DNA from: a virus
Virus record (IMG/VR): IMGVR_UViG_3300046660_000385
Location: 53,859 to 117,858 of that record
DNA: 64,000 nt
Reading direction: 5' to 3' (one strand)
A program made the position numbers and the translations under genes. Positions 3,184-51,184 of this stretch are shown one piece after another. Below the pieces are notes generated by a model. The model was given only the letters and a program-made list of their open reading frames with translations. It ran no database searches and was not told where the DNA came from. Position 1 is the stretch's first letter, and each line of letters starts with the position of its first letter.

Positions 3184-3195
3184 GGGGAGGCGCGC

Positions 3196-14100: not shown

Positions 14101-14489
14101 ACGCGCGCAGCACCGCGCAAGGCCAGCGCATCGCGGCCAACCCGACCGCCGGCAAGCTCGCCGAGCACGCGCTGCAGGGCGAATACACCAACCGCGGGCA
14201 CCAGATCCAGGGCGAGTCGAACGAACGCGTCGCCAAGACCCAGGCCGAGGCACAGATGGAAGCGCACCGTATACACACTGCGGGCGGTGGTGTCAACCAG
14301 GAGACTGGACAGCCAATGCCGACTAACATCTTCGACCAGAAGAAGAACGAATGGATCACTCCCCCTCGTAGTGTTCCGCCCAAGGCCGTGGCGATCCAGC
14401 AGGCGCGCGAATCGCTCAAGCGCGGCAGCAAGCTCGAGGACGTCAACGCAATTCTGCATGGTTACGGCTACGAGCCGATCACCCAGTAA
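11163..14489 (+). CDS. internal virion protein with lytic transglycosylase domain (1108 aa)
   Basis: Residues about 13-255 are seven or so degenerate helical repeats of 35-40 residues containing NLRQQI and AVQ-R-L patterns. Residues about 255-445 are an Ala/Pro/Gly linker. A hydrophobic-helical part follows to about 560. A goose-type/SLT lysozyme-like domain lies near 750-870, with GQESSNG (candidate catalytic Glu763), NRGAVGPMQV and AAGYYGGPSG, the expected E, GxMQ and AAYNxG-type signatures. It would locally open peptidoglycan during DNA ejection. Being directly before the giant protein gene suggests that both are injected together. The antisense strand is also open here for kilobases, a composition artefact. 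Confidence 0.8.
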   Translation: MPNPDDLIEPSSQGNLRERINAGEAQRQASAGQVRERIADVAARQAPEPGNLRQQITNAAPMQQEQARAVQERMAQAPNLRQQLTNAAPQQAADARAVAQRLNPPTLTDVVKPGNINPSLRDDLIKNSVQAQNDAKAVQSRLQAGAAQPAPEPNLRQQILDAAPRQQMEAQQVAQRLNAGAPPATPQPDLRAQINAAAPQAQADAQAVQQRLQAGAPPAEPGMRERLLARAQAAPSAADQALRARLNPPGSIAQAASQAVAPAAPAADLGRMGAGVAGAAGRNPAAAPAARPAAPAASPAAPAAGPAAPPTAGVTDASGRPIPTRVPGATGGMTPSPSAGTVRPDVGAMRATMGLPPTPPGAAPAAGAAAGAAGIAAAGRAAGAAPAAAAAAPAAAPAAGAAADAAARARTAAGVAGAAGRAAGAGAPAAAAAAPAAEAGAGANATRLARTSYNVGKFVGNNRAILGKAGVAGAGAQVISHFNDYKLNEPDVDSSAGGTLKALFTGDLSGAGKSALKGLKEAAMDVGSAAANAADYVIPGNAPVSRAYDQMLHEKLGDKLVPDKSVIADMARGQPAPAAKPVPAAAPEAAKPVEKPAAPEAAKPAAKEGAKPAAAQAPQPNLSNMAANARDEALGAIDNEEAADPRAVYYETVNHKDGTTTYETRDRGQIVVKEGAQLSPEDQQRIETYKGRQSQRDGIEQRYQQMLQHLQGGGDGMVPASPVANAARSAGQAPSNPKFEQALGAEGADGDFAAFARSLIGQESSNGRNTKTSNRGAVGPMQVRPGTFGDMADKGWDINNEDHNMRAGIRYARMMWEKAGGDPALAAAGYYGGPSGLEKARAGHAVRDPKNPNAPDTLQYGQQVAARMGAGGAAAAPAQVAAPAAAAPAYGARDFRNPLDGAVEVINMGGNAERSMYLPGKGGDVRSGLTPEAYSTLQTAIRNNPALAERMVVNNSGVAVDGLAMPLNVIAGGDGMMAQYARSTAQGQRIAANPTAGKLAEHALQGEYTNRGHQIQGESNERVAKTQAEAQMEAHRIHTAGGGVNQETGQPMPTNIFDQKKNEWITPPRSVPPKAVAIQQARESLKRGSKLEDVNAILHGYGYEPITQ

Positions 14490-14501
14490 GGACCGGACGC
14501 T

Positions 14502-17500
14502 ATGGCAAACGACAACAAGGATCTGGGCGACTTCGCCGCGATCACCCCTGGCACGCAACCCGACCTGGGCGAGTTCGCCAAGATCACGCCCAACGGCGGC
14601 AAGCCGCGCAGCGCGATCGGCGAGATCGGCAACCAGCTCAAGGCCGGTATGCTGGTCGACCTGCCGAAGATGGCGGGCCAGGCGATCCAGTACACGTCCG
14701 ATCCTGGTCGTCCTGTCTATGAGTTCGGCAAGAGCATCGCCGACTACGCGCGCGAGCAGGAAGCGCGCCCCGACCTGCAGCCGCAGGAATACGACCACAA
14801 CATCGTCACAAACACGCTCGCCGCCGGCGCCCGCATGATCCCGCAGTCGATCATCCCGGCCGCCGGTGTCGGCCTGGTCGCGTCCGGCGTCGGCGCTGGC
14901 GCTGGCGGCGCGCTGCTGGCCGGTTCCGTGCTGGGCGCGGCCCCGGCCGGCATGGCGCAGGCCGAGGACACGCTGGAAAAGGCCCGCGCCAAGGGCGACA
15001 TTTCCGAGCACGATGCGCTGGTGGCCGCCCGCAAGACCGGCCTGATCGAGTGGGGCGGCGAGACCGTCGGCAACTACCTCGGCGGCAAGATGTTCGGCCT
15101 GGCCGGGCGCGCGATCGGCAAGACCACCGGCACCGCCGCCGAGCGTGCGCTGCAGGAAGCGACCAACACGCAGGTGCTCAAGCCGTGGATGCGCCAGCTG
15201 CCCGAGACCATCATCGGCGAAGTCGGCACGGAAATGGGCCAGAACGCGGGCGAAGCCTACGTCGAGCAGCAGGCCGGGATCGACAACCACGCGCCGTGGG
15301 ACGCCGCCAAGGAAGCGATTCTGCCGACCATCGGCATGACCGCGCTGCTGGCCCCGTTCGGCCTGGCCGGCATGGGCGTGAACGCGCACCGCCAGCAGCA
15401 ACGTAACGACGTCCTGACCTCGCCGGATGCCGACCAGAACTCGCGCACCCGCATCGCCGCCGAGATCGCGCCCGAAATCGAGAAGGTCGACCGCCAGGCC
15501 GCGGCGAATTTCCGCGTCAACGCAGCCCGCGCCATTTCGTCGAACCAGCCGCTGACGCTGGACTCGTCGCTGTTCGCCGACCCGGCGGCCGCCCCGCCCG
15601 CGCCAAGCGCCCCCGCCGCCCAGCCGGCCATCAACCCGGCCGACGCGCCGGACGCCGGCACCGACGTGGTGCCGCAGAACGCGATGACGGCCGCTGCCAG
15701 CCTGGTGCAGCCGATGCTGCCGATGCGCCAGGAGGGCGCCCAGAAGCAGGCCGAGGAACGCACCCGCACCACCGGCATCCCGCACGAGGTCGTGCCGCAC
15801 CCGAGCGCGGCCGGCATGTTCGGCGTGCGCGCGGTCCAGGACCCGGCGCTCGAACAGGGCGCAGCCCCGGCCGCCGAGGCGCCGCCGCTCGATCCTGCCG
15901 CGCCGGCGACCCCGGCCGCCCCGGTCGGCCTGCAGATCGGCGAGACCGTGCAGGCGACGATCAACGGCGAGGACGTGTTCCCGGAGGGCACCCGCATCAC
16001 CGGGTTCTCGCCGAACGGCAAGTTCGTGCTGGTCGAAGGTTCGACCGCCGGCATCCCGATCGAGAACATCACCCGCCTCGACCCGGCCGCCGCCGCCGCG
16101 ATCGAGCTTGGTGCGCACGAGGCCGCCACCAGCCCGCAGAACGACCGCCCGGAGCCGTCCGAGGCCCAGAAACACGCCGGCAACTACAAGAAAGGCCCGG
16201 CCGAGCTGCAGGGCCTGCCGCTGATGATCGAGAACCCGGTCGGCTCGACCCGCACCGGCACCGACCCGGACGGCACGCCGTGGTCGACCACCATGAGCGA
16301 CCACTACGGCTACATCCGTGGCACCAAGGGGTCCGACGGCAAGGAGCTGGACATCTACGTCGGCCCGAACCCGGCCAGCCACCATGTGTTCGTGGTCGAC
16401 CAGATGAACCAGGACACCGGCGAATACGACGAGCACAAGATCATGCTCGGCTACAACTCGCCCGAGCAGGCCCAGCGCGCCTACGAGGCGCACTACACGC
16501 AGGGCTGGCAGGGCGGCGAGAACGTCACCGCCACCACCGTCGACGGCCTCAAGGAGTGGCTCAAGGGCGACACCACCCAGCCGTTCAATCCGGCCTACTA
16601 CCCGGACATGCAGATCCCGGCCGGACCGGACCTGTTCAACACCGAGCAGGCCGCGCCGCCAGCCGTCACCACCGAGGCCCCGGCCGCGCCGCAGCAGCCG
16701 CAAGACAGGGAGCAGATCGCCCGCGACACGCTGCGCGAGCTGGGCCAGATCTCGAACGATCACTTCGGCGGCAACCACCCGAACGCGATCGACTTCGGCA
16801 CCGCCGACGGCACGTTCGCCGGCCTGGGCACCCTGAACATGGACGAGCAGGGCAACATCGTCCTGCGCCGCTTTGCCTACAACGAGGACCATGTCCTCAA
16901 GAACGGCAAGCCCGCCAGCCTGCAGGAAATGATGGATGCTTCGCTGTTTTCCGGCTCGACCCCGGACGCCGGCGCGGTGCCGACCTCGGGCCTGGCTTCG
17001 TTCCATGACGCCTACAGCAAGCGTGCGTACGACGCGATTTTCCGCATCCAGCCGCAGGAACTGGTCGAGCTGGCCAGGCAGGGCAAGGCGGTGCTCGGCA
17101 ACCTGAGCGAGGGCGAGGTCCTGCTGTCCGGCGACATCGCGGGCAAGTACCTGAGCGAACTGAACGGCAAGCCGGTCACGCCGGAAGAACTTCAGCGCCT
17201 GACCAAGCCGGCCGGGCGGATGCAGGGCGCGGCGCTGACCGAGGACGAGCTGAACGCCGCGTTCGACCAGGCCGAAAACGAGCTGGCGCAGGAGCAGAAG
17301 CCGCCCGCGCAGGAGCCGCAGGCCCAGGAACCGTCCGCACGCTGGGACAACGCTACGCCGGACGAGCGGATCGACATGCTGACCAAGGCCGGCCGAGGCG
17401 ACGTCGCCGAGGACTTCGCCCATGTGGGCTGGGACGACCTGTCGCCCCGCGCCCAGGAAGCGCTGTCCAGGCCCGCCCAGCAGCCGCAGAGCGCCTACGA

Positions 17501-20500
17501 GCGCTACAAGGAGATCATGACGCGCGGCGGCAGCGGCACGGCCAAGCTGGTCGACGAGATCCGCCGCAGCGACGAGCTGACCGACGCCCAGGTGCAGGAG
17601 CTGGTCGGGCTGCCGAAGATCGACAAGGCCGCCGAGGAGAAAAGCCGCGCCGACAGCGCCGCGTTCGGCCAGCGCGCCGCCGAGATCCTGTCGACCCTGA
17701 AAGGCCTGAAAACCCCGGACGCCATCGCCAGCGCCCAGCAGACCCTGTCCACGCTGGCCGACGACATGGACGCGGTGAACGACCGCTTCCGCAACCTGGT
17801 GCGCAAGGCCGCCGACGAGATCCCGGCGTGGATGCCGCACAACCTCGGCCAGGCCGGTGACGCCGAGCGCCAGGCCGCCAACCGCGTCAAGAACACGCTC
17901 GAAGGCGTGGCCAACTTCGGCAAGAACGTCACCGCGCCGGAACACGCCGGCAACGAATTCAAGGAATACGACCCGAACAACAGGTTCGAGCCGACCGCCT
18001 CGCCCGAGGACGCGATCGGCGAGGCCGAGATCGACGAGCGCGTGATCCCGCTCACGATGGACGCGAGCGACTTCAAGGAAGTCACCGACGAGTGGGCGTC
18101 GCTGTTCGCCGCCCCCGGCCAGAAGGTCATCACCGAGCAGCGCGCCAAGCAGGCCGGCGTCATGTCGCAGGAAGAAGCGGCCGCCCAGCTGGCCAAGTGG
18201 AAGGAACACGTCGCCAAGCAGGCCGAGGAGCACCGCGGCGAGAACTCCCAGCGCACGATCCTGTCGCTGTTCGACCTGTCGGGCGAGTGGTCCAAGCCGT
18301 GGCGCGAAGCCGGCTACAACGTCGTCACCTTCGACATCCAGACCGGCCAGGACGTGAACGACTTCTCGGTCGAATACTTCACCGACGAGTGGGACCTGAG
18401 CGACGTCTACGGCATCCTGGCCGCCGCGCCGTGCACGGATTTCACGCACGCCGCCTCGCGCCTGTGGGCCGTGAAGGACGCCGACGGCCGCACCGAGGCC
18501 TCGAAGGAGCTGGTGCTGCAGACCCTGCGCACCATCGAATATTTCCGTCCGAAGTTCTGGGCGCTGGAAAACCCGAGCGGCGGCCGGATCGAGAAAGTCA
18601 CCGGCCTGCCGTCGCCGCGCCTGTCGTTCCAGCCGCACCACTTCGGCAACCCGGAGACCAAGCCGACCGCGCTGTTCGGCAAGTTCAACCCGGAGCTGCC
18701 GCTGGCGAACGTCGCCCCGACCGGCAGCAAGACCGACAAGGTCGGCGGCAAGAGCATCGAGACCAAGAACGAGCGCTCGGAGACCCCGGAAGGGTTCGCC
18801 TATGCGTTCTTCATGGCCAACAACTACATCGACCAGACCCCCGAGCAGCGCCTGGTCGGCGACTTCCCCGAGCTGTCCGGCGCCGTCAAGGGCGCGCTCA
18901 AGGCCGGCATGGACGAAGAAGCGATCCGCGACGTCGTCACCCGCACCTACGAGGACGGCGACCCGGATGCGGCCCGCAACGAGCTGGTGCAGGCCGTGGC
19001 CGACCACGTCAAGGAGAACGGCGCCCCGGCCAAGCCGGCCGGGGTCGACTACCCGAACCGCCGCCTGGGTTTCCAGAAGGCGGCCACGGACGAGGCCGAC
19101 GCCTACAACGACCACGCCTGGGCCAACATCGCCGCGGCCAACATGAAGGTCGGCGACAAGTTCGAGCTGGGCGGCAAGCAGCAGAGCGTCGAGTCGATCA
19201 GCGACAAGACCCTGAAACTCAAGGATGCGGACGGCAAGACCCGCACCCTGAACCCGGACGGCGTGGCGTGGGACCAGTTCAAGCGCGACCTGGCCGGCCA
19301 GCTGGTGGTCGAGAACCTGCAGGCCAACAACATCATGAAGCCGGCGCGCCCGCTGATCGACATCCTGCGCCGCGATCCGGCCGCGCACGTCGACAGCAAG
19401 GGGTCCGTCTACCTGCGCGACGGCGGCCTGGTGCCGGCGGCAAAGCAGGAAGATGAGGAACAGGCGACCGCCTGGGCTGACGTCGAGACCGGCGACCGGA
19501 TGGACGTCGTCGCCTATCGCGCCCGTCCGTTCGGCGCGAAGGAGGATGGGCACCCGAAGGGCGGCGTGTTCTACGCCGAGACCGAGGACGGCACCGCCGG
19601 GTACGGCGGTACGGCTGCCGAAGTCGTCAAGGAAAAGCTGTCGCTCACGAACGTCCTGGTGGTGGACAACAAGCAGGCGGCATTGACGAAGCTGTTCGGC
19701 AAGAACAGCGACGAGCTGGGCAAGTATTTCGATGCCCGCGACGACGAGTCCAAGAACGCCGAGAGCGTGGCGGACGAGCTGATCGGCCCGGCGGCGAAGG
19801 CAGCCGGCTACGACGCCGTTCTCTACAAGCAGGACACCGACCTGTACGGCAACGCCACCCGCTCGCTGCAGGTGGTGCGCAATGTCGACAGCCAGGCCGA
19901 GCAGGCCAAGCCAGAGGCGCCCGCGCCGGCCGCGACCGAGGACGAAGCCAAGCCCGGCAAGATCCGCTCGTTCAGCGAGGACGAGAAGCGCGCGATCGCC
20001 GGGATCTCGCTCGGCACCGGCACCCTGGTCAACCGCGAACTCGAACTGGGGCTGGGCAACTTCATCCGTCCGAACACGATCAAGGCGCTGCGCGAGAAAC
20101 TGCTGGGAATGGACCCGGACAAGGTGCGGCCGTACATCGACGGCGCCGTGCGGCGCTACGAGCGCGAGCGTGCGGAAAAAGAGCCGGTCGTGCAGAACCA
20201 GCAGAAGATCCACGTCTACGACGAGAAGGAAGCCAAGCCGCTCCTGATTATCGCCTGCACCGAGGAAAAGCTGGCGGGCCGCCACGCCGTGATCGACCTG
20301 TACCAAGGGGCGATGTTCGACGTGCTGCGCAAGTGGCTGCCGAAGGGCGCGATCGACGTCTACGTCCTGTCGGCCAAGTACGGCCTGGTGCGCGCCGAAG
20401 CCGTCCTGCAGAGCTACGACGAGAAGATGACGGCCTCGCGCCAGAAGGAGCTGATCGCCGAGGGATTGGTCCCGAGCGACTTCAAGGGCAAGAATTTCAG

Positions 20501-23500
20501 CGAGGTCTACATCGCCGGCGGCCAGCTGTACGCCCCGGTGGCGCAGGTCTACGCCGAGCAGCTGCGCGCGGCCGGCTTCGTCGGCCCCGAGGCCGAGGTC
20601 AAGGGCACGGTCGGCTTCATCGGCCAGCAGCGCGGCCAGCTGGGCGAATACCTGCGCACCGTGCACGAGCGCCTGGGCACCCTGCCGGAACGTCCGGCGC
20701 CGCTCGAGGTGGGCGTGCGCGTGCGCATCAAGCGCCTGACCAAGGCCCCGGTCGCGGGCGTGTCGCTGAAAGACGCCAACCGCTTCGCCGGCCGCATGGG
20801 CACGGTCGAGCGCGAAATGATCGTCGGCGAGAACCGATATTTCATCGTCAACCTGGACGACACCCCGGAAAAGGTCGAGCGCCAGCAGGAATTCCACAGC
20901 GGTTTCCTCGACGTCCTGACCCCGGCCGAGCAGGCCGCGCCGGGCGAGCTGGCCGACGACGTCGAGAAGCGCAAGGCGCAGATCCGCGAGCAGGTCGAAG
21001 CCACGCTGGGCGCCGACAAGCAGCTGGTGGCGCAGGCTGACCTGGTCGGCACCGGCAACCGCTTCGTCGACTTCAAGGACAGCTACAAGGCCGCGTTCGA
21101 GAGGACGCTGGCCCAGATGGCCAAGGACGGGAAGATCGAGGCGCGCGACGTCCAGATGTTCACCGACAGCCTCGACAAGCTGCCCGGCTATCTTGACCGC
21201 GCCGCGCGCCAGTTCATCAACGACCACCACGGCCCGGACAACCAGGAACTGTCCTCGCTCAAGCACAAGTGGGGTTATACCGACGAGAACGTACCGAAGG
21301 ACGGCCGCTTCCCGGACTACGAGACCGCGCTGAAATTCGACAACAAGCGCACCGGCAAGGAACAGTTCTCGTTCGAGATCCAGGTGGCGCAGGGACCGAA
21401 CGGCCGCTGGGCCGTCTCGTCCGGCTACCAGCAGGGCGGCCAGACCGGCAACGCCACCGGCATCGGGATGATCCCGCCGGCGCTGACCTCGGAAGCGCAC
21501 CGCACCCGCATGCTGGCCGTCGAGGCCGGCGGCGAGGCGATCCGCCAGCACCTGGCCGCGAACGGCAAGGAATCGCTGCGCACGACCGGCAATATCCTGA
21601 CCGCGATCACCAAGCTGAAACTGCTGGGCGAGCTGCGCGACAAGGCGGCCGCGCTGGCCGCGCGCGCCGAGGCCGCCGGCGCAGAGAAGCTGGCCGGCCA
21701 GATCCGCGAGGTCGGCCGCGACATGCAGCCCAACGACGTCAACCTGACCCGCAAGCGCGTCGACGAGACGATCGCCGGGCGCGAGAAACTGGTCCGCGCC
21801 GCCGAAAAGCGCGCGGAAAAGAAAGCCGCCGAGAAAGCCGCCAAGGCCGAACCGAAGGCCGACCCGAAACCGGAGCCGGTCGCGCCCGAAGCGCCGCAGC
21901 CGAAGCAGGACGCGCCAGGCACCCGCCGCTTCCCGAAGTCCGTGCGCACCGCGATCGCCACGCGCCTGCAGCAGGTGCTGGACGGTTTCAGCGCCGACCG
22001 CAACACCCGCGAAGGTCGCGCCCGGTCGATCATGCGCAGCGCGATCGAGGAGCTGGGCAAGGAAAAGACCGTCATCGACGTGGCCGACCAGCTGCGCGAT
22101 GCGTCCAGCGACCTGTTCAAGCAGTTCAAGGTGCAGGCCGACGTGCTCGACGAGATCGCCGACCAGCTCGACGCGGCCGAGAACCAGCAGGAGCAGGAAG
22201 TCCCGGCCGCGGTCGCGGAACCGGCCAGCCCGGCGAAATTCGACATCGGCACCCCGCCCACGCTGGACTACCGCCTGCAGACGCGCGGCGGCACGCTGTA
22301 CCTGATCCCGCCGGTCGGCAAAGGTTTTACGAAGGAAACCCGCGACGCCCTGCGCGACTGGCTCAGGAGCGCAGGCTACTTCTCCAACGCGACCGGCGAC
22401 CACATGGTATCGGCCAGCCAGATCACCGGCGGTCCGTCCACCGACCTGATCCCTGACGGCGTCGAGGAACAGAAATACGGCAGGCTCGTCGCCAAGGAAA
22501 AGGCAAAGGACGACGGCGCCCTGGCCGGCTCGCGCCCGATGTCGCCCAAGCAGTTCGAGACCGACCTGAAAGATCACGGCAAGCTGCGCTTCGGCGAAGC
22601 GACCTACGAGGTCAAGCCGGCCGGCCGCGGCGGCTTCGGCCGCATCCAGGCCGACACCTATATTGTCGAAGTCAGCTATCCGCACAGCAACAAGCAGATC
22701 GGGTTCCAGCAGAACCTGTCGCTGCAGCAGGCGGTCGAGGCCGCCCGCGTTGACGCGTTCGACTGGTGGGACAACCGCCGCGTCAAGGAAGCCGAGTTCG
22801 CCAAGAAGCGCGAGAAGCTGGTGCGCGCCGGCCAGCGCGAGCTGTTCGGGCTGTTCTCGAAGGACCCGGATCTGATGAGGATCGCGGCCGACGCCGGCCT
22901 GCCGGTCGAGGTCGACGCCGCCGCGCGCCGCGCGATCGTGGACTGGGTCGCCGCCGAAAAGGCCGTTGCCGACCTCGATCCCGACCGCAAGCTGATGCTG
23001 GACAACATCGTCATCGGCGGCCGCGTGACGTTCCCGTCCGAGTGGTTCGACTCGCTGCGCAAGTACCTGAAACGCGCGGTCAAGCGCGCCGAGAAGGAGC
23101 TGGACCGCGACCCGGCCGTGTACCAGGCCGAGCTGATCCGCTCGGCGCAGCTGGTCGGCCTGCCGCCCGAGAGCGTGGGCGTGTTCAAGCTGGGGTTCGA
23201 CCACGCGCTGGCCGGCAAGACCAAGTCGACCCTGCCGCCGTCGACCATGATGGCGCAGGGCTATGACGCCGGCGCCGCGTGGATGAAATCGGACGAGGGC
23301 CAAGCCTGGTTCACCGGCCGCCGTGGCAAGAAGCTGGAAAACACCGGCGCCGACCTGCGCCGCTGGTTCGACGAATCCAAGCGCAAGATCAAGGAAGTCA
23401 CGGCCGACAACCTGACCGCGTCCTACGAGATCATCAAGGGCCAGGCCTCGCGCGTGGAGGCGTTCGCCAACGTCGCCGGCCCCGGCGCCACGCCCGGCAC

Positions 23501-29500: not shown

Positions 29501-32500
29501 CTCGTCGATCGCACGGCGCCTGGACCAGCTGGGCGCACTGACCAAGGGCCAGCGCGAGACCGGCGGCCAGGGCCTGTTCGCGGCCACCGACAACCTCGAA
29601 TCGCAGCACGCCGCGGACGCCGTGCAGGCGTTCTTCGTCGACATGTACAACGGCACGGCGAAACTCAACTTCGCCGAGACCACGGCCGCGCTGGGCCTGA
29701 ACGGCCTGATCGACGAGAGCACCGGCGCGCTGATCTACGGCAAGCTGCCGGAAGTGCCGAAGTTCCTGAACCGCCTGATGTCGCTGGAAACCCACCGCCA
29801 GGACGAGGTGTTCGAGGAGTTCTTCAACCGCCTGACGGAAGTGATCGAGCGCGCCAAGGCCAACGGCACCTTCGACGCCGGCATGGAGACCCTGCGCGCC
29901 GACAAGGTGACGAAGCTGCGCGACGAGGTCGTCTACGAGGACAAGCGCACTGGCGCCAACACCCGCTATGTCGAGCTGGAACTGACCCACCCGACGCACT
30001 TCAACTCGTTCGACCAGGCCCAGTCCGAGATCGTCCGCTGGGGCGACAAGTTCCTCGGCTTCTTCCGCAACGAGAGGACCGGCAAGGTGTTCGCGCTGAT
30101 GCGCACCGGCACCTCGACCGACGCCAAATCCGGCAACGTGGTCACGCGCGGCGCGCAGCTGCGCACGACCGGCGGCTACCGCTACGGCGACGAGGTCGAC
30201 AAGATCATCAAGGGCGCGCGCGGCGAAAAGACGGTCAAGAAAACCGTGGTGCCGATGCTGTACTCGCCGCCGACCAACGAGGTGCTGACCGAGACCTACA
30301 CCAACACGAACGACAAGCAAATGACGGTGTCCTCGCACCGCCTGGCCGACCTGCTGATCCAGCGCGGCCTGGAACGGGTCGAGCAGACCATCCTGGCCGG
30401 CCCGTCCGGTTCGGAGCGGGACGCGTTCATCCGCCTGCTGGACAAGATGCGCCCGCACCTGGTGGCGCAGAAGGAGACCGAGCGCCAGGTGCCGGCGTTC
30501 GTGCGCCTGACCGCTGACGCGGCGCGCTCCGAGTGGGATGCCGAGGTCGCCGCCACCCCGACGACCTACACCAGCAAGACGCACCTCTTGACCGGGATGC
30601 TGCTGCCGATCTGGGACCGCCTGCCGGGCGACCCGCGCGTGGTGCGCACCCAGACCGAGGACGGCGAGCGCCTGCTGGGCCGCGTGGTATCCGAGCGCAA
30701 CCTGGACCAGACCCTGAAAAACCTCGGGGTCGGCTCGAACCTGTCGAAGGTCGCACCGAGCACCGTGCTGCAGCGCCTGATGGATGGCCAGCGCGGCATC
30801 CTGGCCAACGGCTGGCTGCTGCAGAAGGTGCGCGTCTCGAACGACAGCCGGATCGAGATCAGCGGCCAGTCGCTGGCGTACAACCGCGCCGAGCGCGAGC
30901 TGCTGACCAACAACGGCGCGTTCGTCGAGCGCATCAACTGGCAGGAGCGCGTGTTCATCCCGACCGGGGAGCAGGGCGTCAAGCTGCTCGAGAAGCTGCT
31001 GGAATACAAGCCGCTGGTCGAGCTGGGCAAGCCGGCCGAGGCCCAGACCGAGGACGAGGACGCCGAGTTCTCGCGCGGACGAAGCGACACCGGCATGTCC
31101 AGGGGCGACGTGCAGAACGTGGTCGCGCCGATCGTGAAGGGCTGGCTGAACGGCCCGAAAGTAACTGTCGTCCAGAGCGTGGCCGACCTGCCGTTCAAGG
31201 CACCTAGCGACACCCGCGGCGCGACCTACCAGGGACAGGTCTGGATAGTGGCGGACAACCTCGGACACGCCGGCGAAGTGCAGTTCGTGCTGGCGCACGA
31301 GGCGCTGGGCCACATCGGCCTGCAGGCCCTGCTGGGCAAGGAAGCGCTGACCCGCGAGCTGAACCGCCTGCGCCTCATCAACCCGGAGCTGGCCAAGGCC
31401 GCGCGCGAGCAGGCCGCCACCTTCGGCTACGACCTGAACCTGGCCACCGAGGAAGCGCTGGCGGATCTGGCCGGCACCGGCAAGACCATCAACGGCTGGC
31501 AGAAGTTCGCCGCGCTGGTGCAGAAAGCCCTGCGTCAGCTGGGCCTGGACCGGGTCGCCGACTGGATGGAGGGCAAGACCCAGGCCGAGACCATGTCCTT
31601 GCTGGCCCGCGCCAGGGAGGCGGTCGAGGGTTCGCGCGCCGCGCGCACCTTCGGCAACATGGAGACCGCCCGGTTCTCGGACGGCATGAAGTCGCCCTGG
31701 TTCTCGCAGCTGGCGCGCCAGATCGAGCGCCTGCCGCAGAAGTCGGCCACCGCCCTGCAGTGGGGCGAGACCATGATGGGCAGCGGCTTCGCCCAGAAGG
31801 GCGTCAAGCAGGACGAGATCTACTGGACCGGCGTGATGGACTGGCTGCTGATGCAGGGCGAGAACACCAAGGTCACGAAGGCCGCGCTGCTGGACTACCT
31901 GGCCGAGAATGGCGTGCGCGTCACGGAAACGATGCACAGCGAGGAAGTGCCCGAGCCGACCCCGGAAGGCCTGGCCAAGCGCGAAGCGGTGCTCGCCAAG
32001 TACAACGAGCGCCTGGACGACCTGCAGGAGCGCATCCTGGACAGCGACGAGACGCCCGAGCGCCTGGCGCTGCAGGAGGAGTGGTCGAACCTGATCGACC
32101 AGCGCAACATCGAGGCCGACCTGGCCTACCGGCTGCCGTCCAACCGCTTCCAGCGTCCGCGCTACGCCAGCTACACGCTGCCGGGCGGCGAGAACAACCG
32201 CGAGCTGCTGCTGACCCTGCCCGCGCGCGAGCCGTCCTTCAAGCTGGACGACTACATCGGCGAGCTGAGCGACAAGTACGGCTGGGAGGTCCAGGGCAAC
32301 ATGCGCCGCCCGGGGTGGACCGAGGACGACCTGGCGCCGGACGAGCGCACCAGGCTGCACGCGCTGCAGGAAGAATCGCTGCAGGAGGACAACGAGCGCA
32401 CCCGCAATACCTTCCAGTCGAGCCACTGGGACCAGAAGAACGTGCTGGCGCACGTCCGCTTCAACGACCGCACCGACAGCGAGGGCAAGCGCGTACTCCA

Positions 32501-35500
32501 CGTCGAGGAACTGCAGAGCGACTGGGGGCAGATCGGCAAGCGTGACGGCTTCAAGGGCGACCCGGTCCCGCCGGCGGAACTGGACGCGGCCGCCAAGGCC
32601 GCGCGCCAGGTGCTGAACAGGAACGACAACCTCGGCTTCGACTACACGATCGAGGCGATGAGCGCGATCGAGCACCACAACGACTGGAAACACCGCTGGG
32701 AGCTGGACACGCCGTCGGACTATGCCGTGGTCGACCACTACCGGCAACTGTACATGTTGAACGCGCTGGCCAATGCCGGCGTGCCGCAGGCGCCGTTCGT
32801 CGGCAAGACCGAGGCCTGGCTGAACCTGGCTTTGAAGCGCGTGATGGTCTACGCCGCCGAGAAGGGCTACGACCGTGTCTCGTTCGTCACCGGCGACCAG
32901 GCCGTCAACCGCTTCAACCTGTCGCAGCAGGTCAAGGCGGTCGAGGTCGAGAAGGCGGTCGGCGAGCCGGGCTACCGCGTCAACATCACGCTGCTGGACG
33001 GCGAGCCGCACGAGACCTGGGCCAACGATGACCACGACCTGGTCAACCTGATGGGCAAGGAGCTGGCCAGCAAGGCGATCGACCAGATCAAGGCCGATCC
33101 GTTCAGCGCCGCCCGCTTCACCGGCGACAACCTGAACCTGGGCGGCCACGGCATGCGCACGTTCTACGACAAGATCGTGCCGAACGCGGTGAACAACCTG
33201 ATGAAGGGGCTGGGCGGCGGCCGCGTGTACGAGGGCGACGTCATCCACAAGGAGCCGTACGACCCGAAGCCGGGCACGACCAACTACGTCGACGAGGACG
33301 GCCGCCTGGCCTACGCCAACCACGGCGTCACCGGCGACCCGGACTTCGGCGCCAACAACTACTACCCGTACAAGGGGTGGAGCAGCCAGCCGGTGATCGA
33401 CATCACCGACACCATGCGCGAGAAGGTACAAGGCGGCCTGCCGCTGTTCTCGCGCAACGTCGAGGACACCGGCCCGCTGCCGGCGGCGAGGGACGAGGCC
33501 AGCGTGCGCCTGTCGCGCGCCACCCCGCAGCAGCTGGCGCGCCAGGTCGGCGACACGCTGAAAACCAACACGGTGACGAAGCTGGGCCGCACGCTGTCGC
33601 ACTACCGCTCGATCGGCCTGCAGTTCCTGGGCCGCCTGCAGCTGACCGAGATCTACGGCAAGCTGTTCCCGCAGGGCGACCGGCCAAACATGCTGCAGTT
33701 CTACAGCGAACTGGCCGCGTTCATGGACGCCGAAAAGACCGAGGGCGGCAGCAAGGCCGACGCCATCGTCGACCGCTGGGCCAAGCTCAAGCGCGCCGAC
33801 GAGCTGGCCAGCCTGATGCACGACAGCACCCGCCGCGAGATCGACCCGTCCGAGGCCTACGTCACCGGCGACAACTACACGCACTGGAAGGAACTGAACG
33901 CGCGCTACGAGGCCCTCAAGAAGGCCGAGCCGGAAGCGATCAAGATCTTCCACGAGGCGGCGCAGATGTACCAGACCCACTACGCCAACGTGCGCCAGGC
34001 CGTGAAGGACCGGATCGACCGCACCCTGACGGCGCACCCCAACCGCAAGAGCCTGATGCGCCGGATGGAGCAGGAGTTCTTCGGGCGCGGCATCAAGGGC
34101 GTGTACTTCCCGCTGGCGCGCTTCGGCGACTACGTCGTCACCGTGCGCTGGGTCGGCAAGGACCCGAAACCGGGGCAAAGCGTGGTGCGCGAGGCCGTCA
34201 TCTTCGCCGAGACCCTGAACCAGGCCGAGGACGAACGCCGGCGCCTGCTGGCCGAGTACCCGGCGTCCAAGGGCTACCAGGTGATGCCGGTGACGAAGCG
34301 CGCCGAGTTCAACGCGGCCAGGGATTCCGTCTCGCGCGGCTTCCTGAAAAAGCTGTACGCCGCACTGGACGACGCGGGCCTGCAGGACCCGTCGCTGCAG
34401 GACACGATCAACCAGCTGTATCTGACCAGCCTGCCGGACCTGTCCTGGGCCAAGAGCGGCATCCACCGCACCGGCATGCCGGGCTTCAGCCAGGATGCGC
34501 GCCGCGCGTTCGCCCACCACATGTTCCACGGCGTGTCCTACCTGGCCAAGCTGAACTACTCGGACCGGCTGGCCGAGGTGCTCGAGGGCATGCAGAAGTT
34601 CGCCAACGCCAACGCCGCCAACCCGGACTACGACCACGTCAAGGCGCAGCAGGTCATCGACGAGATGCACAAGCGCCACGACAACTACATGAACCCGAAG
34701 GGCAACCAGCTGTCGACGAAGCTGACCTCGTTCGGTTTTGTCTGGTTCCTGGGTGCGTCGCCGGCCTCGGCGCTGACCAACCTGCTGCAGACCCCGACGG
34801 TGGCGCTGCCGATCCTCGGCGGCCGCTTCGGCTACTCCAAGGCGACGTCGGCGCTGATCGAGGCGTCCGGGCTGGCGATGCGCGGCCACAACGACATGGG
34901 CAAGATCCTCAAGGGCGACGAGAAGCGCGCCTGGGAGGAGTGGCTGCGCATCGGCCTGGTCGACCTGACGATGGTGCACGATCTGGTCGGCGTGGCCTCG
35001 GGCCGCGACAACCAGCTGCACGGCAACATGCGCAAGGTGATGAAGGTGGCATCCTTCATGTTCCACCACGCCGAGCGCTTCAACCGCCAGGCGACGGCGC
35101 TGGCGGCCTACCGGCTGGCGCGCAAGGACGGCATGAACCACGACGACGCGTTCCGCGCCTCGGTCGAACTGACCAAGGCCTCGCATTTCGATTATGCCTC
35201 GTCAAATCGCCCGCGCTTCATGCAGGGGTCGGCGGCGCAGGTCGTGTTCCTGTTCAAGCAGTACAGCCAGAACCTGATCTACACCTTCGCGCGCAACGCG
35301 AAACTCGCGTTCCAGGGCGACCGGCAAGCGCAAAAGACGCTGGCCGGCCTGCTCGTCACCCACGCGATCGCGGCCGGCATCATCGGCCTGCCGGCGGTGT
35401 CGACGCTGCTGGCGGCCGCGTCGATGCTGGGCGGCAGCGACGACGATCCGTGGGACGCCGAGGTGGCGCTGCGGCGCCTGCTGGCCGACCTGTTCGGCGA

Positions 35501-36191
35501 GACGGCCGGCCAGGTGCTGGCGCACGGCATCACGCGCCCGACCCCGTTCGACATGTCCGGCCGGGTCGGCGCCGACCACCTGATCTTCCCGGACATCCAG
35601 GAAGGACTGCAGGGCGAGCGCTCGTTCGACGCGTTCCTGGCCGGCCTGCTCGGCCCGGTCGTCGGCATCGGCGCCAACTGGGCCAGGGCCTTGCAGCAGT
35701 GGGGCCGCGGCGACAGCGCGCGCGCGATCGAGACCGCGCTGCCGTCGGTGGCCAAGGGACCGTGGCGCTCGATCCGCTACGCCGAGGAGGACGGCGCCAA
35801 GGACCGCAACGGCATCGTGGTGGCCGATGACATCACCGGCACCGAGCACGCGGCCTCGTGGCTGGGGTTCTCGAACGGCCGCGTGCGCGAGGCGCAGGAA
35901 GCCAAGGCCGCGATCTACGGGCGCGACCAGGCCCTGCAGCGCCGCCGCCAGCAGCTGATGGACGAGTACGCCCGCAAGCGCATCAAGCACGAGGACGTGG
36001 GCGACCAGATGGCCGCGATCCGGGAGTTCAACCGCGCGCACCCGAACCGGATCATCGGCGGGCTGCATCTGGCCCAGTCGGTGCGCAACCGCATGAAGCA
36101 CAACCAGCAGGCCAAACAGGGCCTGTACCTGCCGGCCAAGCGCGCGAAGGATGCGCGCTCGGCCGGCGATTTCGCAGACGGGGAGGACTAA
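14502..36191 (+). CDS. giant polyvalent (PLxRFG-type) injected protein, 7229 aa
   Basis: One unbroken frame of 21.7 kb. In order: hydrophobic N-terminal segments near 110-150 and 270-297; pyrophosphatase-like domain 557-692 (DHYGYIRGTKGSDGKELDIY); C5-methyltransferase-like domain 1250-1445 with APCTDF and ENPSGG; ADP-ribosyltransferase-like domain 1660-1796 (VVAYRARPFG, GVFYAET); DUF6884-like domain 1910-2025; LPD1-type zincin with HEWFHALD from 3293; N6-adenine methyltransferase near 3930-4137 with NPPF at 4025; Strawberry-notch-like helicase 4290-5330 (GDGTGVGK 4380, DEAH 4573, QGFGRTHRSN 4970); second zincin HEALGH 5599; a QSDWG domain near 6005; PLARFG at 6537; hydrophobic C-terminal segments 6746-6980. 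The methyltransferase plus helicase pair recalls P1 DarB, so antirestriction of incoming DNA is likely. The other domains may act on host targets. Domain names rest on motif recognition only. Confidence 0.9.
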   Translation: MANDNKDLGDFAAITPGTQPDLGEFAKITPNGGKPRSAIGEIGNQLKAGMLVDLPKMAGQAIQYTSDPGRPVYEFGKSIADYAREQEARPDLQPQEYDHNIVTNTLAAGARMIPQSIIPAAGVGLVASGVGAGAGGALLAGSVLGAAPAGMAQAEDTLEKARAKGDISEHDALVAARKTGLIEWGGETVGNYLGGKMFGLAGRAIGKTTGTAAERALQEATNTQVLKPWMRQLPETIIGEVGTEMGQNAGEAYVEQQAGIDNHAPWDAAKEAILPTIGMTALLAPFGLAGMGVNAHRQQQRNDVLTSPDADQNSRTRIAAEIAPEIEKVDRQAAANFRVNAARAISSNQPLTLDSSLFADPAAAPPAPSAPAAQPAINPADAPDAGTDVVPQNAMTAAASLVQPMLPMRQEGAQKQAEERTRTTGIPHEVVPHPSAAGMFGVRAVQDPALEQGAAPAAEAPPLDPAAPATPAAPVGLQIGETVQATINGEDVFPEGTRITGFSPNGKFVLVEGSTAGIPIENITRLDPAAAAAIELGAHEAATSPQNDRPEPSEAQKHAGNYKKGPAELQGLPLMIENPVGSTRTGTDPDGTPWSTTMSDHYGYIRGTKGSDGKELDIYVGPNPASHHVFVVDQMNQDTGEYDEHKIMLGYNSPEQAQRAYEAHYTQGWQGGENVTATTVDGLKEWLKGDTTQPFNPAYYPDMQIPAGPDLFNTEQAAPPAVTTEAPAAPQQPQDREQIARDTLRELGQISNDHFGGNHPNAIDFGTADGTFAGLGTLNMDEQGNIVLRRFAYNEDHVLKNGKPASLQEMMDASLFSGSTPDAGAVPTSGLASFHDAYSKRAYDAIFRIQPQELVELARQGKAVLGNLSEGEVLLSGDIAGKYLSELNGKPVTPEELQRLTKPAGRMQGAALTEDELNAAFDQAENELAQEQKPPAQEPQAQEPSARWDNATPDERIDMLTKAGRGDVAEDFAHVGWDDLSPRAQEALSRPAQQPQSAYERYKEIMTRGGSGTAKLVDEIRRSDELTDAQVQELVGLPKIDKAAEEKSRADSAAFGQRAAEILSTLKGLKTPDAIASAQQTLSTLADDMDAVNDRFRNLVRKAADEIPAWMPHNLGQAGDAERQAANRVKNTLEGVANFGKNVTAPEHAGNEFKEYDPNNRFEPTASPEDAIGEAEIDERVIPLTMDASDFKEVTDEWASLFAAPGQKVITEQRAKQAGVMSQEEAAAQLAKWKEHVAKQAEEHRGENSQRTILSLFDLSGEWSKPWREAGYNVVTFDIQTGQDVNDFSVEYFTDEWDLSDVYGILAAAPCTDFTHAASRLWAVKDADGRTEASKELVLQTLRTIEYFRPKFWALENPSGGRIEKVTGLPSPRLSFQPHHFGNPETKPTALFGKFNPELPLANVAPTGSKTDKVGGKSIETKNERSETPEGFAYAFFMANNYIDQTPEQRLVGDFPELSGAVKGALKAGMDEEAIRDVVTRTYEDGDPDAARNELVQAVADHVKENGAPAKPAGVDYPNRRLGFQKAATDEADAYNDHAWANIAAANMKVGDKFELGGKQQSVESISDKTLKLKDADGKTRTLNPDGVAWDQFKRDLAGQLVVENLQANNIMKPARPLIDILRRDPAAHVDSKGSVYLRDGGLVPAAKQEDEEQATAWADVETGDRMDVVAYRARPFGAKEDGHPKGGVFYAETEDGTAGYGGTAAEVVKEKLSLTNVLVVDNKQAALTKLFGKNSDELGKYFDARDDESKNAESVADELIGPAAKAAGYDAVLYKQDTDLYGNATRSLQVVRNVDSQAEQAKPEAPAPAATEDEAKPGKIRSFSEDEKRAIAGISLGTGTLVNRELELGLGNFIRPNTIKALREKLLGMDPDKVRPYIDGAVRRYERERAEKEPVVQNQQKIHVYDEKEAKPLLIIACTEEKLAGRHAVIDLYQGAMFDVLRKWLPKGAIDVYVLSAKYGLVRAEAVLQSYDEKMTASRQKELIAEGLVPSDFKGKNFSEVYIAGGQLYAPVAQVYAEQLRAAGFVGPEAEVKGTVGFIGQQRGQLGEYLRTVHERLGTLPERPAPLEVGVRVRIKRLTKAPVAGVSLKDANRFAGRMGTVEREMIVGENRYFIVNLDDTPEKVERQQEFHSGFLDVLTPAEQAAPGELADDVEKRKAQIREQVEATLGADKQLVAQADLVGTGNRFVDFKDSYKAAFERTLAQMAKDGKIEARDVQMFTDSLDKLPGYLDRAARQFINDHHGPDNQELSSLKHKWGYTDENVPKDGRFPDYETALKFDNKRTGKEQFSFEIQVAQGPNGRWAVSSGYQQGGQTGNATGIGMIPPALTSEAHRTRMLAVEAGGEAIRQHLAANGKESLRTTGNILTAITKLKLLGELRDKAAALAARAEAAGAEKLAGQIREVGRDMQPNDVNLTRKRVDETIAGREKLVRAAEKRAEKKAAEKAAKAEPKADPKPEPVAPEAPQPKQDAPGTRRFPKSVRTAIATRLQQVLDGFSADRNTREGRARSIMRSAIEELGKEKTVIDVADQLRDASSDLFKQFKVQADVLDEIADQLDAAENQQEQEVPAAVAEPASPAKFDIGTPPTLDYRLQTRGGTLYLIPPVGKGFTKETRDALRDWLRSAGYFSNATGDHMVSASQITGGPSTDLIPDGVEEQKYGRLVAKEKAKDDGALAGSRPMSPKQFETDLKDHGKLRFGEATYEVKPAGRGGFGRIQADTYIVEVSYPHSNKQIGFQQNLSLQQAVEAARVDAFDWWDNRRVKEAEFAKKREKLVRAGQRELFGLFSKDPDLMRIAADAGLPVEVDAAARRAIVDWVAAEKAVADLDPDRKLMLDNIVIGGRVTFPSEWFDSLRKYLKRAVKRAEKELDRDPAVYQAELIRSAQLVGLPPESVGVFKLGFDHALAGKTKSTLPPSTMMAQGYDAGAAWMKSDEGQAWFTGRRGKKLENTGADLRRWFDESKRKIKEVTADNLTASYEIIKGQASRVEAFANVAGPGATPGTKRYITAVRDSLRPFQEWLLENGPLQTLYGETGYRESESFRITRFLDGRAYPMTYDATGKRVSMEDATAQERLELLQEAAATYNARLQGLAEAMSGATTVEEAARAYQGYLVKNKDEYVYSSTRLTEAGKEIDRLVRGRVHDLEPDTREVENLIKTQNEPDGPSNRKQALMVPKLDHVVREGEKLQDYRKGENVTPQQMKDTFGFADVGFGKWVGAKQDQDHLNYAYDAFMDLAKLLGIDPKHIGLGGSLHFTIGALGHGRHAAHFQARQPHPHGGTVPVINVTNTKGDGTVAHEWFHALDHALSEQWHGSSWVQHEAVQRVVRLLSTSRDIEFLVKKLPLAVSGQSFMRYGRRNTPIHNLKTEAGLIENAEAVLRYDAGRQGGRPTDYKKNADAMGEDYWGNPKELLARAAEAWVHDTLGGTSNYLVNPAWVGEGKVKAPQYKGAPYPMGEERKLFNDALGALVKALRFNDKGVTLDKETFDKEFPDLDRQFKEAYESLKAQIPSMVRAHLAEKEARKVAQKYAKDEAERAKQAEALAAQKAKEQAERDAAEARLREELEKQQQQPVEPPSGPLSEGDLEALFDQAESELAEEQQEQPEAKDPGEATQADHWTQEDYQHLLKLIDDGQVFLLADPSRGLSIIHDMPGQYTEHKGFGLFHTKTPEYDVTWDGGGEMRQTPGGKSYTLVSIKEGREAFLKAINWDQAKTKLQAKLIVKTGPKAAPTLSAEQEKSAKQLIGEAAKLGVTGIEESLKGLIQLFGGNALKSFPAGFDEESYKAAKPHFEKALAAFQAAGKTLVDLFKMLIQHFGPGIRPYAIQFAKEQGLSANLAPPVSATEKIAKWVEQRLQAKETFGSAPLFKVADEAFGGTQAEGKYSVKDAYDAMEAGMNRHIMAQGITPDGAATDAVHKIEELDGWTQRLATQTRRTEEMDEYQQFSTPPSEAFAAAWLANIRPGEVVLEPSAGTGSLAIYAKLAGADVVVNELSSRRAEVLKTVLPEARLFQENAEQLHNILPADVKPSVILMNPPFSATAGRMQGARDTNNGATHIEQALKRLQEGGRLVAIVGSGMAADRPAFKSWWTKIRQDYNVRVNITVDGSNYAKYGTTFDNQILVIDKTGPTTAAVVTGEVKTLAELPALLEGIRNERKAAEGTDGAHPSGQPDADQQGGDRVPAGQEAAGDRAGGADADPVGTGQRDQSDSGGAGLPGHRQDGSAGGRDGEQVGAEAGGEVSDQPGKPGPAGRGANGRGTGGLGNTRGRSGTADRESVPRDGGQQPVTGEVTVEASDQAAATGELSDAIFENYTPQRLSIPGAKPHPGKLVQSAAMSAVLPPSPSYAPNLPKAVIEKGLLSLAQLEAVVYAGQAHQQMLPGGEVRRGFFIGDGTGVGKGREIAGILLDNQRQGRKKAVWLSAKQGLLRDAKRDFAGVSGNPDHILAHNKVKAGEKIDADSGILFTTYDTLRMGSDIKNNAPGLAGPGTMSAEQLKATYPKGTPIEWRGRSGTLESWDTRGHKAKISLPNGVQTTVRFDELKVNGQSGWGGIDHVKNDKKLDSKSRLNQIVEWLGKDFDGVIAFDEAHKMGNVLERKGKRGKTKPSATALAGVALQEALPKARIVYVSATGATEVHNLAYATRLGLWGEGSAFAKVTDFVGGIESGGVAAMELVSRDMKAQGSYLARSLSFDGVTYDRLEHQLTPLQNDIYNELARAWQGVLQNVNAALEATLQNKDPKAKSNALSAFWGNHQRFFSHIITAMQMPTIIEAAQRDLDNGHAVVMQLVNTNQAEQDRQAAKMANDDEAIPEDFDFTPRDTLLNYVRHSFPVQQHEEYTDEEGNKHTRPVVDSKGNPVFNQEMVAKRDALVKNLEQIRVPDNPLDMIVRAFGVSNVAEITGRSRRFIQEQDPKTGGFKVVEQKRPASAVPADADAFMDDKKRVLVFSDAGGTGYSFQSDLGAKNQRRRMHYLVQPGWRANNAVQGFGRTHRSNEANQPHYVLPTTNLKAQKRFISSIARRLDQLGALTKGQRETGGQGLFAATDNLESQHAADAVQAFFVDMYNGTAKLNFAETTAALGLNGLIDESTGALIYGKLPEVPKFLNRLMSLETHRQDEVFEEFFNRLTEVIERAKANGTFDAGMETLRADKVTKLRDEVVYEDKRTGANTRYVELELTHPTHFNSFDQAQSEIVRWGDKFLGFFRNERTGKVFALMRTGTSTDAKSGNVVTRGAQLRTTGGYRYGDEVDKIIKGARGEKTVKKTVVPMLYSPPTNEVLTETYTNTNDKQMTVSSHRLADLLIQRGLERVEQTILAGPSGSERDAFIRLLDKMRPHLVAQKETERQVPAFVRLTADAARSEWDAEVAATPTTYTSKTHLLTGMLLPIWDRLPGDPRVVRTQTEDGERLLGRVVSERNLDQTLKNLGVGSNLSKVAPSTVLQRLMDGQRGILANGWLLQKVRVSNDSRIEISGQSLAYNRAERELLTNNGAFVERINWQERVFIPTGEQGVKLLEKLLEYKPLVELGKPAEAQTEDEDAEFSRGRSDTGMSRGDVQNVVAPIVKGWLNGPKVTVVQSVADLPFKAPSDTRGATYQGQVWIVADNLGHAGEVQFVLAHEALGHIGLQALLGKEALTRELNRLRLINPELAKAAREQAATFGYDLNLATEEALADLAGTGKTINGWQKFAALVQKALRQLGLDRVADWMEGKTQAETMSLLARAREAVEGSRAARTFGNMETARFSDGMKSPWFSQLARQIERLPQKSATALQWGETMMGSGFAQKGVKQDEIYWTGVMDWLLMQGENTKVTKAALLDYLAENGVRVTETMHSEEVPEPTPEGLAKREAVLAKYNERLDDLQERILDSDETPERLALQEEWSNLIDQRNIEADLAYRLPSNRFQRPRYASYTLPGGENNRELLLTLPAREPSFKLDDYIGELSDKYGWEVQGNMRRPGWTEDDLAPDERTRLHALQEESLQEDNERTRNTFQSSHWDQKNVLAHVRFNDRTDSEGKRVLHVEELQSDWGQIGKRDGFKGDPVPPAELDAAAKAARQVLNRNDNLGFDYTIEAMSAIEHHNDWKHRWELDTPSDYAVVDHYRQLYMLNALANAGVPQAPFVGKTEAWLNLALKRVMVYAAEKGYDRVSFVTGDQAVNRFNLSQQVKAVEVEKAVGEPGYRVNITLLDGEPHETWANDDHDLVNLMGKELASKAIDQIKADPFSAARFTGDNLNLGGHGMRTFYDKIVPNAVNNLMKGLGGGRVYEGDVIHKEPYDPKPGTTNYVDEDGRLAYANHGVTGDPDFGANNYYPYKGWSSQPVIDITDTMREKVQGGLPLFSRNVEDTGPLPAARDEASVRLSRATPQQLARQVGDTLKTNTVTKLGRTLSHYRSIGLQFLGRLQLTEIYGKLFPQGDRPNMLQFYSELAAFMDAEKTEGGSKADAIVDRWAKLKRADELASLMHDSTRREIDPSEAYVTGDNYTHWKELNARYEALKKAEPEAIKIFHEAAQMYQTHYANVRQAVKDRIDRTLTAHPNRKSLMRRMEQEFFGRGIKGVYFPLARFGDYVVTVRWVGKDPKPGQSVVREAVIFAETLNQAEDERRRLLAEYPASKGYQVMPVTKRAEFNAARDSVSRGFLKKLYAALDDAGLQDPSLQDTINQLYLTSLPDLSWAKSGIHRTGMPGFSQDARRAFAHHMFHGVSYLAKLNYSDRLAEVLEGMQKFANANAANPDYDHVKAQQVIDEMHKRHDNYMNPKGNQLSTKLTSFGFVWFLGASPASALTNLLQTPTVALPILGGRFGYSKATSALIEASGLAMRGHNDMGKILKGDEKRAWEEWLRIGLVDLTMVHDLVGVASGRDNQLHGNMRKVMKVASFMFHHAERFNRQATALAAYRLARKDGMNHDDAFRASVELTKASHFDYASSNRPRFMQGSAAQVVFLFKQYSQNLIYTFARNAKLAFQGDRQAQKTLAGLLVTHAIAAGIIGLPAVSTLLAAASMLGGSDDDPWDAEVALRRLLADLFGETAGQVLAHGITRPTPFDMSGRVGADHLIFPDIQEGLQGERSFDAFLAGLLGPVVGIGANWARALQQWGRGDSARAIETALPSVAKGPWRSIRYAEEDGAKDRNGIVVADDITGTEHAASWLGFSNGRVREAQEAKAAIYGRDQALQRRRQQLMDEYARKRIKHEDVGDQMAAIREFNRAHPNRIIGGLHLAQSVRNRMKHNQQAKQGLYLPAKRAKDARSAGDFADGED
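26932..27330 (+). CDS. nested gene in alternate frame inside the giant gene (132 aa, unknown)
   Basis: ATG 26932 follows GGAAGG (26918-26923) by 8 bases. The frame is +1 relative to the giant gene. The product is a balanced, ordinary-looking protein (MNEKLLKVRMARTLLVNQMP, FLPGKKPLATEPAVL, LIENLYHAMVANSP), unlike other shadow frames here, which are Arg/Pro/Ala-rich. Over exactly the same bases the giant protein becomes a Gly/Asp/Gln/Arg linker between its methyltransferase and helicase, as expected if the region is selected in the nested frame. I do not recognise its family. Confidence 0.75.
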   Translation: MNEKLLKVRMARTLLVNQMPINRAAIEFLPGKKPLATEPAVLTLIRWGLDNGINPIPVAPGYPDIDRMEAQVDAMANRWEPRRAVRFLTNPESQDPLDVVLTAEELAASATPEDAAELLIENLYHAMVANSP

Positions 36192-45128: not shown

Positions 45129-45182
45129 GGTCCGTCCTGTTGTTGGATCGTGAGCCGGGCCTGGACGTGGCCCGGCGATGGC

Positions 45183-46460: not shown

Positions 46461-46461
46461 G

Positions 46462-47188: not shown

Positions 47189-47190
47189 GT

Positions 47191-47688: not shown

Positions 47689-47696
47689 GTCTGTCC

Positions 47697-49273: not shown

Positions 49274-49307
49274 GGGTCGGGTAATTGTCGGTAAGGAACA
49301 GCCTACG

Positions 49308-49337: not shown

Positions 49338-49425
49338 CTTTTTTTGCCAAGTGTAAGGGGTTCGCCACCGGCGTGGAGCACGCCTGTTCCGCATCTTCCG
49401 CAGTGTGAGAATGTGTGAGTTTTGG

Positions 49426-51115: not shown

Positions 51116-51184
51116 GTGGACGCCTCTTCTCTTTGGAAGAGGAAATTATCGCACAGGGTGGCGGGAATTACCAGTTTGAAACAA

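Follow-up and report, generated by a model that had tools for sequence, protein, structure and literature searches.

The 64-kb stretch of viral DNA analysed here (hereafter the window) carries an open reading frame of 7,229 codons. Its product is a polyvalent protein that is built of exchangeable modules, almost excludes cysteine and, in our assessment, is probably packaged in the virion of a tailed, podovirus-like phage of about 98 kb and ejected into the host. While the class of protein is known, several properties of this member are new: its size within the sampled phage proteins of the tail-700 kind, the in-frame exchange of cassettes between close relatives, the presence in a phage tail-700 protein of a plasmid-type methyltransferase-helicase block and, above all, an exclusion of cysteine for which inteins serve as internal controls.

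The frame opens with an ATG at position 14502 and proceeds without an internal stop to position 36191. The claim of the initial annotation that it is continuous and real is borne out by near-identical and distant contigs alike, all of which keep the frame open: the sister IMG/VR contig (G001) contains an uninterrupted version of 7,144 residues that is 96.8% identical in amino acid sequence to the 7,229-residue protein, and in two relatives cut by contig ends no stop codon interrupts the frame over at least 5,431 residues (G002) and at least 5,868 residues (G052). Substitutions relative to G002 and G052 are enriched at codon position 3 (704 versus 352/261, and 872 versus 532/410), a bias present in almost every stretch of the giant gene. 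Because substitutions concentrate at this position, coding in the sense direction is supported over an antisense open frame of 5,059 residues (window positions 11913 to 27092, minus strand), which is a by-product of high GC content. The open relatives and the codon-position pattern together rule out a GC-composition artefact as the source of the giant frame. Among 50 viral contigs encoding the same C-terminal domain, open frames range from 953 to 7,148 residues and only that of the sister exceeds 6,070, such that the 7,229-residue protein is the largest in this sample; a larger polyvalent protein, of 12,242 residues, is known from a plasmid (Iyer et al., 2017; PMC5512222).

The domains and repeats recognized along the chain are as follows, with positions given in the window.
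14502 to 36191, plus strand: whole polyvalent protein, 7,229 residues, 792 kDa, two cysteines (sister frame, 7,144 residues)
16161 to 16565, plus strand: InPase domain, residues 554-688 (Pfam PF18823, 1.2e-54), found at the same place in relatives
17235 to 17312, plus strand: linker repeat 1, residues 912-937 (...LTEDELNAAFDQAENELAQEQ), bordering the variable C5-methyltransferase slot on its left
18225 to 18845, plus strand: C5 DNA methyltransferase-like domain, residues 1242-1448 (phrog_757, 5.7e-43), with motif IV PCTDF at residue 1310 containing Cys1311
20244 to 20450, plus strand: DUF6884 domain, residues 1915-1983 (Pfam PF21818, 4.6e-13), containing Cys1919
24042 to 24941, plus strand: zincin 1 and LPD1 (2e-12), residues 3181-3480, with HEWFH at 3293-3297
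25230 to 25292, plus strand: linker repeat 2, residues 3577-3597
26289 to 30980, plus strand: adenine methyltransferase (NPPF at residue 4025) and Strawberry-notch (SNO) helicase, residues 3930-5493; a protein of a conjugative plasmid is collinear with this block
31119 to 31601, plus strand: zincin 2, HEXXXH variant, residues 5540-5700, with His5599, Glu5600, His5604 and Glu5651 invariant in 20 sequences
33567 to 34112, plus strand: LPD39, residues 6356-6537 (Pfam PF18858, 5.9e-26)
34098 to 36143, plus strand: tail-700/PLxRFG C-terminal domain, residues 6533-7214, constant and present in all relatives (NF032893, 8.9e-211; 702 bits against a curated cut-off of 100)

This architecture assigns the protein to the phage polyvalent class, and within it to the DarB-like/PLxRFG ("tail-700") kind. 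Several domains of unrelated biochemical activity lie on one chain; the class-specific LPD1, LPD39 and InPase domains score above their cut-offs and are accompanied by members of two MPTase clades; the gene occupies a late position; and an adenine methyltransferase recognized by PHROGs is fused to an SF2 helicase matching AAA_34 (1e-114) and Helicase_C_4 (3e-83) in Pfam. The initial annotation had described a polyvalent protein combining antirestriction, protease-like and host-modifying domains. A real polyvalent protein is confirmed, with domains of antirestriction, protease-like and nucleotide type, and most of what the annotation named is indeed encoded in this frame: the pyrophosphatase-like domain corresponds to InPase, the DUF6884-like domain is recovered by Pfam, both zincin motifs (residues 3293 and 5599) are present and conserved, and two types of methyltransferase are identified, the adenine type by PHROGs together with its NPPF motif and the C5 type by a PHROG match (6e-43), its Pfam score lying under the cut-off. 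The annotated Strawberry-notch/DarB-like helicase is only half upheld, in that the helicase is of the Strawberry-notch type and not the SNF2 type of DarB, and is closest to proteins of conjugative plasmids. The ADP-ribosyltransferase that it placed in the chain was not recovered, given that residues ~1640-1805 have no match in Pfam or among phages, plasmids and viral contigs, and yield a poor model (pLDDT 55) for which Foldseek returned nothing. Sequence searches of the PDB with the C-terminal half of the helicase, the C5 methyltransferase and the tail domain likewise returned nothing usable.

The window constitutes the final part of a 117,858-bp viral contig (G000), of which positions 1-20002 and 98641-117848 (window 44783-63990) are diverged copies of one early-gene block of about 20 kb, mostly 70-85% identical in DNA. 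Since the two ends duplicate one block and the sister contig, which continues from the region past the giant gene directly into the left end of G000, closes the circle near 98 kb, the unit genome is taken to be about 98 kb, 22% of which is the giant gene; a reading of the entire 117,858-bp contig as one genome was dropped for the same reason. The duplicated ends reflect either a chimeric assembly or tandem prophages, and the partly chimeric nature of the contig counts against our preferred explanation. Among the early genes, and in both diverged copies of the block, is a gene encoding a ParB-like protein (window 49426-50331, minus strand). Genes for portal, major head and head-closure proteins lie upstream of the giant gene, which is the last of the virion block; a Pfam search with PF03237 found no terminase. 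Immediately preceding it are three genes:
6552 to 8903, plus strand: 783-residue protein, no cysteine, paralogue of the next gene product; candidate co-ejected protein
8914 to 11151, plus strand: 745-residue protein, no cysteine; candidate co-ejected protein
11163 to 14489, plus strand: 1,108-residue protein with an SLT transglycosylase domain (PF01464, 2e-6), no cysteine; candidate ejected wall-opening protein
The two adjoining paralogues are 35% identical and belong to phrog_10969, to which no function is assigned. Because all three products are free of cysteine, they are probably co-ejected with the giant protein.

A protein of conjugative plasmids matches residues 3930-5493 at 50-66% identity. 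The methyltransferase-helicase block has no match at 1e-5 among 50,697 phage records and matches 557 plasmids at up to 60% identity; one other tail-700 phage frame (L095) also contains it. In a 2,547-residue MEALZ_p protein of Methylotuvimicrobium alcaliphilum, encoded beside the relaxase gene and traF (traI/traF), the first 1,386 residues are collinear with the block, which there is followed by ArdC-N, a zincin (MPTase-PolyVal), DUF5710 and a stretch resembling Toprim, with neither tail-700 nor InPase domains. A transfer directed from plasmid to phage was considered, but the tree of the helicase block interleaves phage and plasmid rows and gives no direction. This plasmid homologue (L170:6948-14591) is itself poor in cysteine (3 in 2,547 residues), while the helicase homologues of alphaproteobacterial plasmids are not; possibly, proteins exported by type IV secretion obey the same cysteine rule.

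Comparison of close relatives reveals that parts of the chain vary as discrete units. For most of the gene's length the DNA of the G000 copy agrees with that of G001 at about 99% of positions, the median number of differences in 150 bases being 0; between residues ~1650 and ~2100 the two diverge sharply, and residues 1655-1805 are unrelated. Including comparisons to G002, G051 and G052, the following variable segments were delineated.
17307 to 17483, plus strand: 59-residue segment, residues 936-994, absent in the sister G001
17337 to 19025, plus strand: slot B, residues ~946-1508, the C5-methyltransferase block; replaced in G051 (ART-PolyVal and an extra module) and in G052
19464 to 19916, plus strand: slot C, residues ~1655-1805, a module unique to the G000 copy; an unrelated module of ~230 residues in G001, G051 and G052
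22191 to 22496, plus strand: segment of residues ~2564-2665, not present in G001, G002 or G052
The alternative slot-C module is 63-68% identical over aligned parts among the three contigs that share it. G051 and G052 lack the entire C5-methyltransferase block, and the G051 replacement begins with a true ART-PolyVal domain (5e-11), which thus occupies a different slot from that to which an ADP-ribosyltransferase had been ascribed. Every swap and every missing segment preserves the frame. That these differences are artefacts of assembling mixed phage populations is very unlikely: mis-joins do occur, as the diverged copies of one block joined at both ends of G000 attest, but the reading frame is kept by all of the changes, the alternative slot-C module recurs in three independent contigs, the slot-B alternative is found in two contigs at 63-64% identity over the module, and the flanking DNA is 98-99% identical on both sides. 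The slot map shows how giant proteins of this kind evolve, with entire enzyme cassettes traded in frame among near-identical phages and one block held in common with conjugative plasmids. In every member that covers the C5-methyltransferase slot, the linker repeat marks its left edge, and it could be guessed that it drives cassette exchange within the family; as a general signal for processing or recombination it was rejected, since it is confined to this family and nearly absent elsewhere (1 of 135 other frames).

The most striking property of the chain is its cysteine content. Only 2 cysteines occur in 7,229 residues where about 85 would be expected from the early genes of the phage (1.17% cysteine; binomial probability 3e-34), and both lie in conserved enzyme motifs: Cys1311 in the PC motif of the C5 methyltransferase and Cys1919 in DUF6884. 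The latter is kept in all five copies that reach DUF6884, the exception being a contig that starts later, and is the sole cysteine in G051 and G052, which are without the C5-methyltransferase block. In a non-redundant set of 113 relatives that share the C-terminal domain, 30 cysteines are found in 395,945 mature residues and 93 frames have none; 18 of the 30 fall in two recurrent motifs, namely the PCT of C5 methyltransferases and an FCDLS motif that is read as part of an SNF2-type helicase. The other genes of three annotated relatives contain cysteine at 0.87-1.25%. Consistent with a link to delivery, cysteine is absent from the ejected proteins of N4 (gp50, 0 of 3500; gp51, 0 of 644) and T7 (gp15, 0 of 747; gp16, 0 of 1318). 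By contrast, DarB of P1, an ejected protein of a phage with a long contractile tail, contains 9 in 2,255 residues, and so counts against our explanation; either the ban is weaker where such a tail is used or its cause is something other than ejection as such. For N4-type virion RNA polymerases, the absence of cysteine has been attributed to the route into the cell, which leads through the tail and across the oxidising periplasm (PMC3715699; PMC3915230; PMC2784036), and a search of the open-access literature found no statement of a cysteine rule for polyvalent proteins.

Evidence regarding the stage at which cysteine is excluded comes from four relatives with intein-like inserts, which start with Cys or Ala and end with HN or GN before Ser/Thr.
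27645 to 27650, plus strand: Walker A (GDG|TGVGKG), the intein site of relative G002 (347 residues), empty in the window
G002 insert (L023 frame, residues 2281-2627): in Walker A of the Strawberry-notch helicase; Intein_splicing, 3.7e-15 (Pfam)
L123 insert, residues 1547-1913: at a GTGK-T Walker A-like site; homing-endonuclease domain (Pfam)
L152 insert, residues 914-1233: at an HFDY motif of the tail domain; sub-threshold Hint match
L156 insert, residues 2290-2620: at an HFDY motif of the tail domain; weak homing-endonuclease match (Pfam)
L152 and L156 sit in contigs of bacterial genomes (Thermomonas and Mesobacterium). In the four chains together, 22 of 22 cysteines lie inside the inteins and 0 outside (per-chain null probabilities of 4e-9, 4e-7, 2e-5 and 2e-3). 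Because the same translated chain tolerates cysteine only within its inteins, selection against cysteine acts after splicing, whether at packaging, at ejection or later, and the ban thus falls on the spliced chain, as has been proposed for the injected RNA polymerase of N4. These observations also bear upon the suggestion that the scarcity of cysteine reflects composition, in the sense of a GC-rich, charged and linker-rich chain, or a trait of virion proteins at large, rather than delivery. Virion genes of the same phage do average less cysteine than its early genes (0.55% versus 1.17%), such that part of the depletion could be a general virion trend, and the P1 tail protein sit has none in 1,140 residues. 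Yet the binomial probability of finding 2 in 7,229 is 4e-15 even if the rate of the virion genes is assumed; the depletion extends to folded enzyme blocks, with the SNO region containing 0 cysteines here versus 2-6 in alphaproteobacterial plasmid homologues; and inteins within the same chain hold cysteine at normal or high rates. We consequently regard composition or virion membership as an improbable account and favor exclusion tied to delivery.

Both zincins retain complete active-site motifs together with conserved candidate third ligands. At zincin 1, all 16 sequences compared have His3264, HEWFH and Asp3300, and 15 of them have Glu3405/Glu3412; at zincin 2, all 20 have His5599, Glu5600, His5604 and Glu5651. 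These variants match two clades described by Iyer et al. (PMC5512222), one with a His and an Asp three residues past HEXXH and the other with HEXXXH. Structure prediction had been proposed as a means to confirm the third metal ligand; for zincin 1, a model folded with 11 sequences was of middling quality and without a significant structural match, while conservation points to the putative ligands named above. Might the chain then be a polyprotein, cut by its own zincins into functional pieces before, during or after delivery? The initial annotation raised this possibility, which Iyer et al. (2017; PMC5512222) had already put forward for the class in its entirety, and here it gains from the conservation of all the catalytic and ligand residues that would be expected, across 16 sequences for zincin 1 and 20 for zincin 2, and from the correspondence to both published clades. 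Precedents point both ways: a protein with such a domain, DdrB of P1, undergoes processing, while the virion RNA polymerase of N4 (packaged uncut), ArdC and TraC1 bear such domains yet are delivered whole. Moreover, no cleavage motif was identified in the chain, the linker repeats number just two per chain (with one instance in 135 other frames), the zincin-1 model is of the quality noted, and the zincins could equally target host proteins. On balance, self-processing seems possible but doubtful, and a chain delivered with its modules joined is preferred.

Taken together, the cysteine pattern, the known ejected proteins, the N4 literature and the detection of a 4,515-residue relative, JC1 gp69, in purified virions by 51 unique peptides (PMC9144972) give ejection the best support of the readings considered. 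The initial annotation had envisaged delivery into the host, and this remains the best reading: the exclusion of cysteine with its intein controls strongly, if indirectly, supports it, and the gene lies at the end of the virion block beside a transglycosylase gene. We infer that the protein is very probably stored in the particle and, on infection, driven into the host cell. Its C-terminal tail-700 part, which is constant, probably ties it to the virion, and the remainder, a chain of exchangeable modules (pyrophosphatase, C5 methyltransferase, DUF6884, two zincins and an adenine methyltransferase coupled to an SNO translocase), would be delivered alongside the DNA. The last of these most likely modifies incoming DNA ahead of restriction enzymes, and may, by analogy with P1 DarB, protect that DNA in cis. 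We propose that selection has stripped the chain of cysteine, sparing the two that lie in conserved enzyme motifs, because the chain crosses the tail and periplasm largely unfolded. Among close relatives, modules come and go and are exchanged without loss of the frame, and one block is shared with transfer proteins of conjugative plasmids.

Somewhat less securely, though with the balance still in its favor, the exclusion of cysteine may be a general selected property of mature chains ejected by short-tailed phages, so strict that incoming modules are screened for it and no cysteines but those of active sites survive, inteins being exempt since they leave before packaging. Cysteine content alone could then identify which proteins a phage ejects. 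The cysteine rule known for the N4 virion RNA polymerase holds here throughout a large class of phage proteins unrelated to it. Inteins as controls make the long-standing conjecture of the tail and oxidising periplasm directly testable, and provide a cheap sequence test for delivered proteins.

The closest known systems are the DarB-like/PLxRFG (tail-700) proteins of Bcep22-type podoviruses (PEp14, POI1126, PBC5, Atu_ph08 and JC1 gp69). As with the protein described here, these are encoded by the last gene of the virion block, and in several cases have an InPase domain near the N-terminus; they are 28-36% identical to it over the C-terminal ~900 residues and free of cysteine, and that of JC1 is found in virions. 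They differ in length (3,000-5,000 versus 7,229 residues), in lacking the SNO helicase and in the modules of the middle region. Members of the polyvalent class described by Iyer et al. (2017; PMC5512222) share InPase, MPTase, the adenine methyltransferase-SF2 dyad and LPDs, as well as a predicted delivery with DNA; what sets the present protein apart from them is its size, its two methyltransferase types and the direct evidence of in-frame module exchange. The virion RNA polymerase of N4 is likewise giant, lacks cysteine and is ejected via a short tail (PMC3715699), but it is an RNA polymerase, and no relationship to tail-700 or methyltransferase-helicase domains emerged. Finally, DarB of P1 resembles the giant protein, as interpreted here, in being a virion-borne antirestriction protein that combines an adenine methyltransferase with an SF2 helicase (PMC9024508), and departs from it in its SNF2-type helicase (Iyer et al., 2017), its 2,255 residues with 9 cysteines, its N-terminal capsid targeting signal and the type of virion in which it travels.
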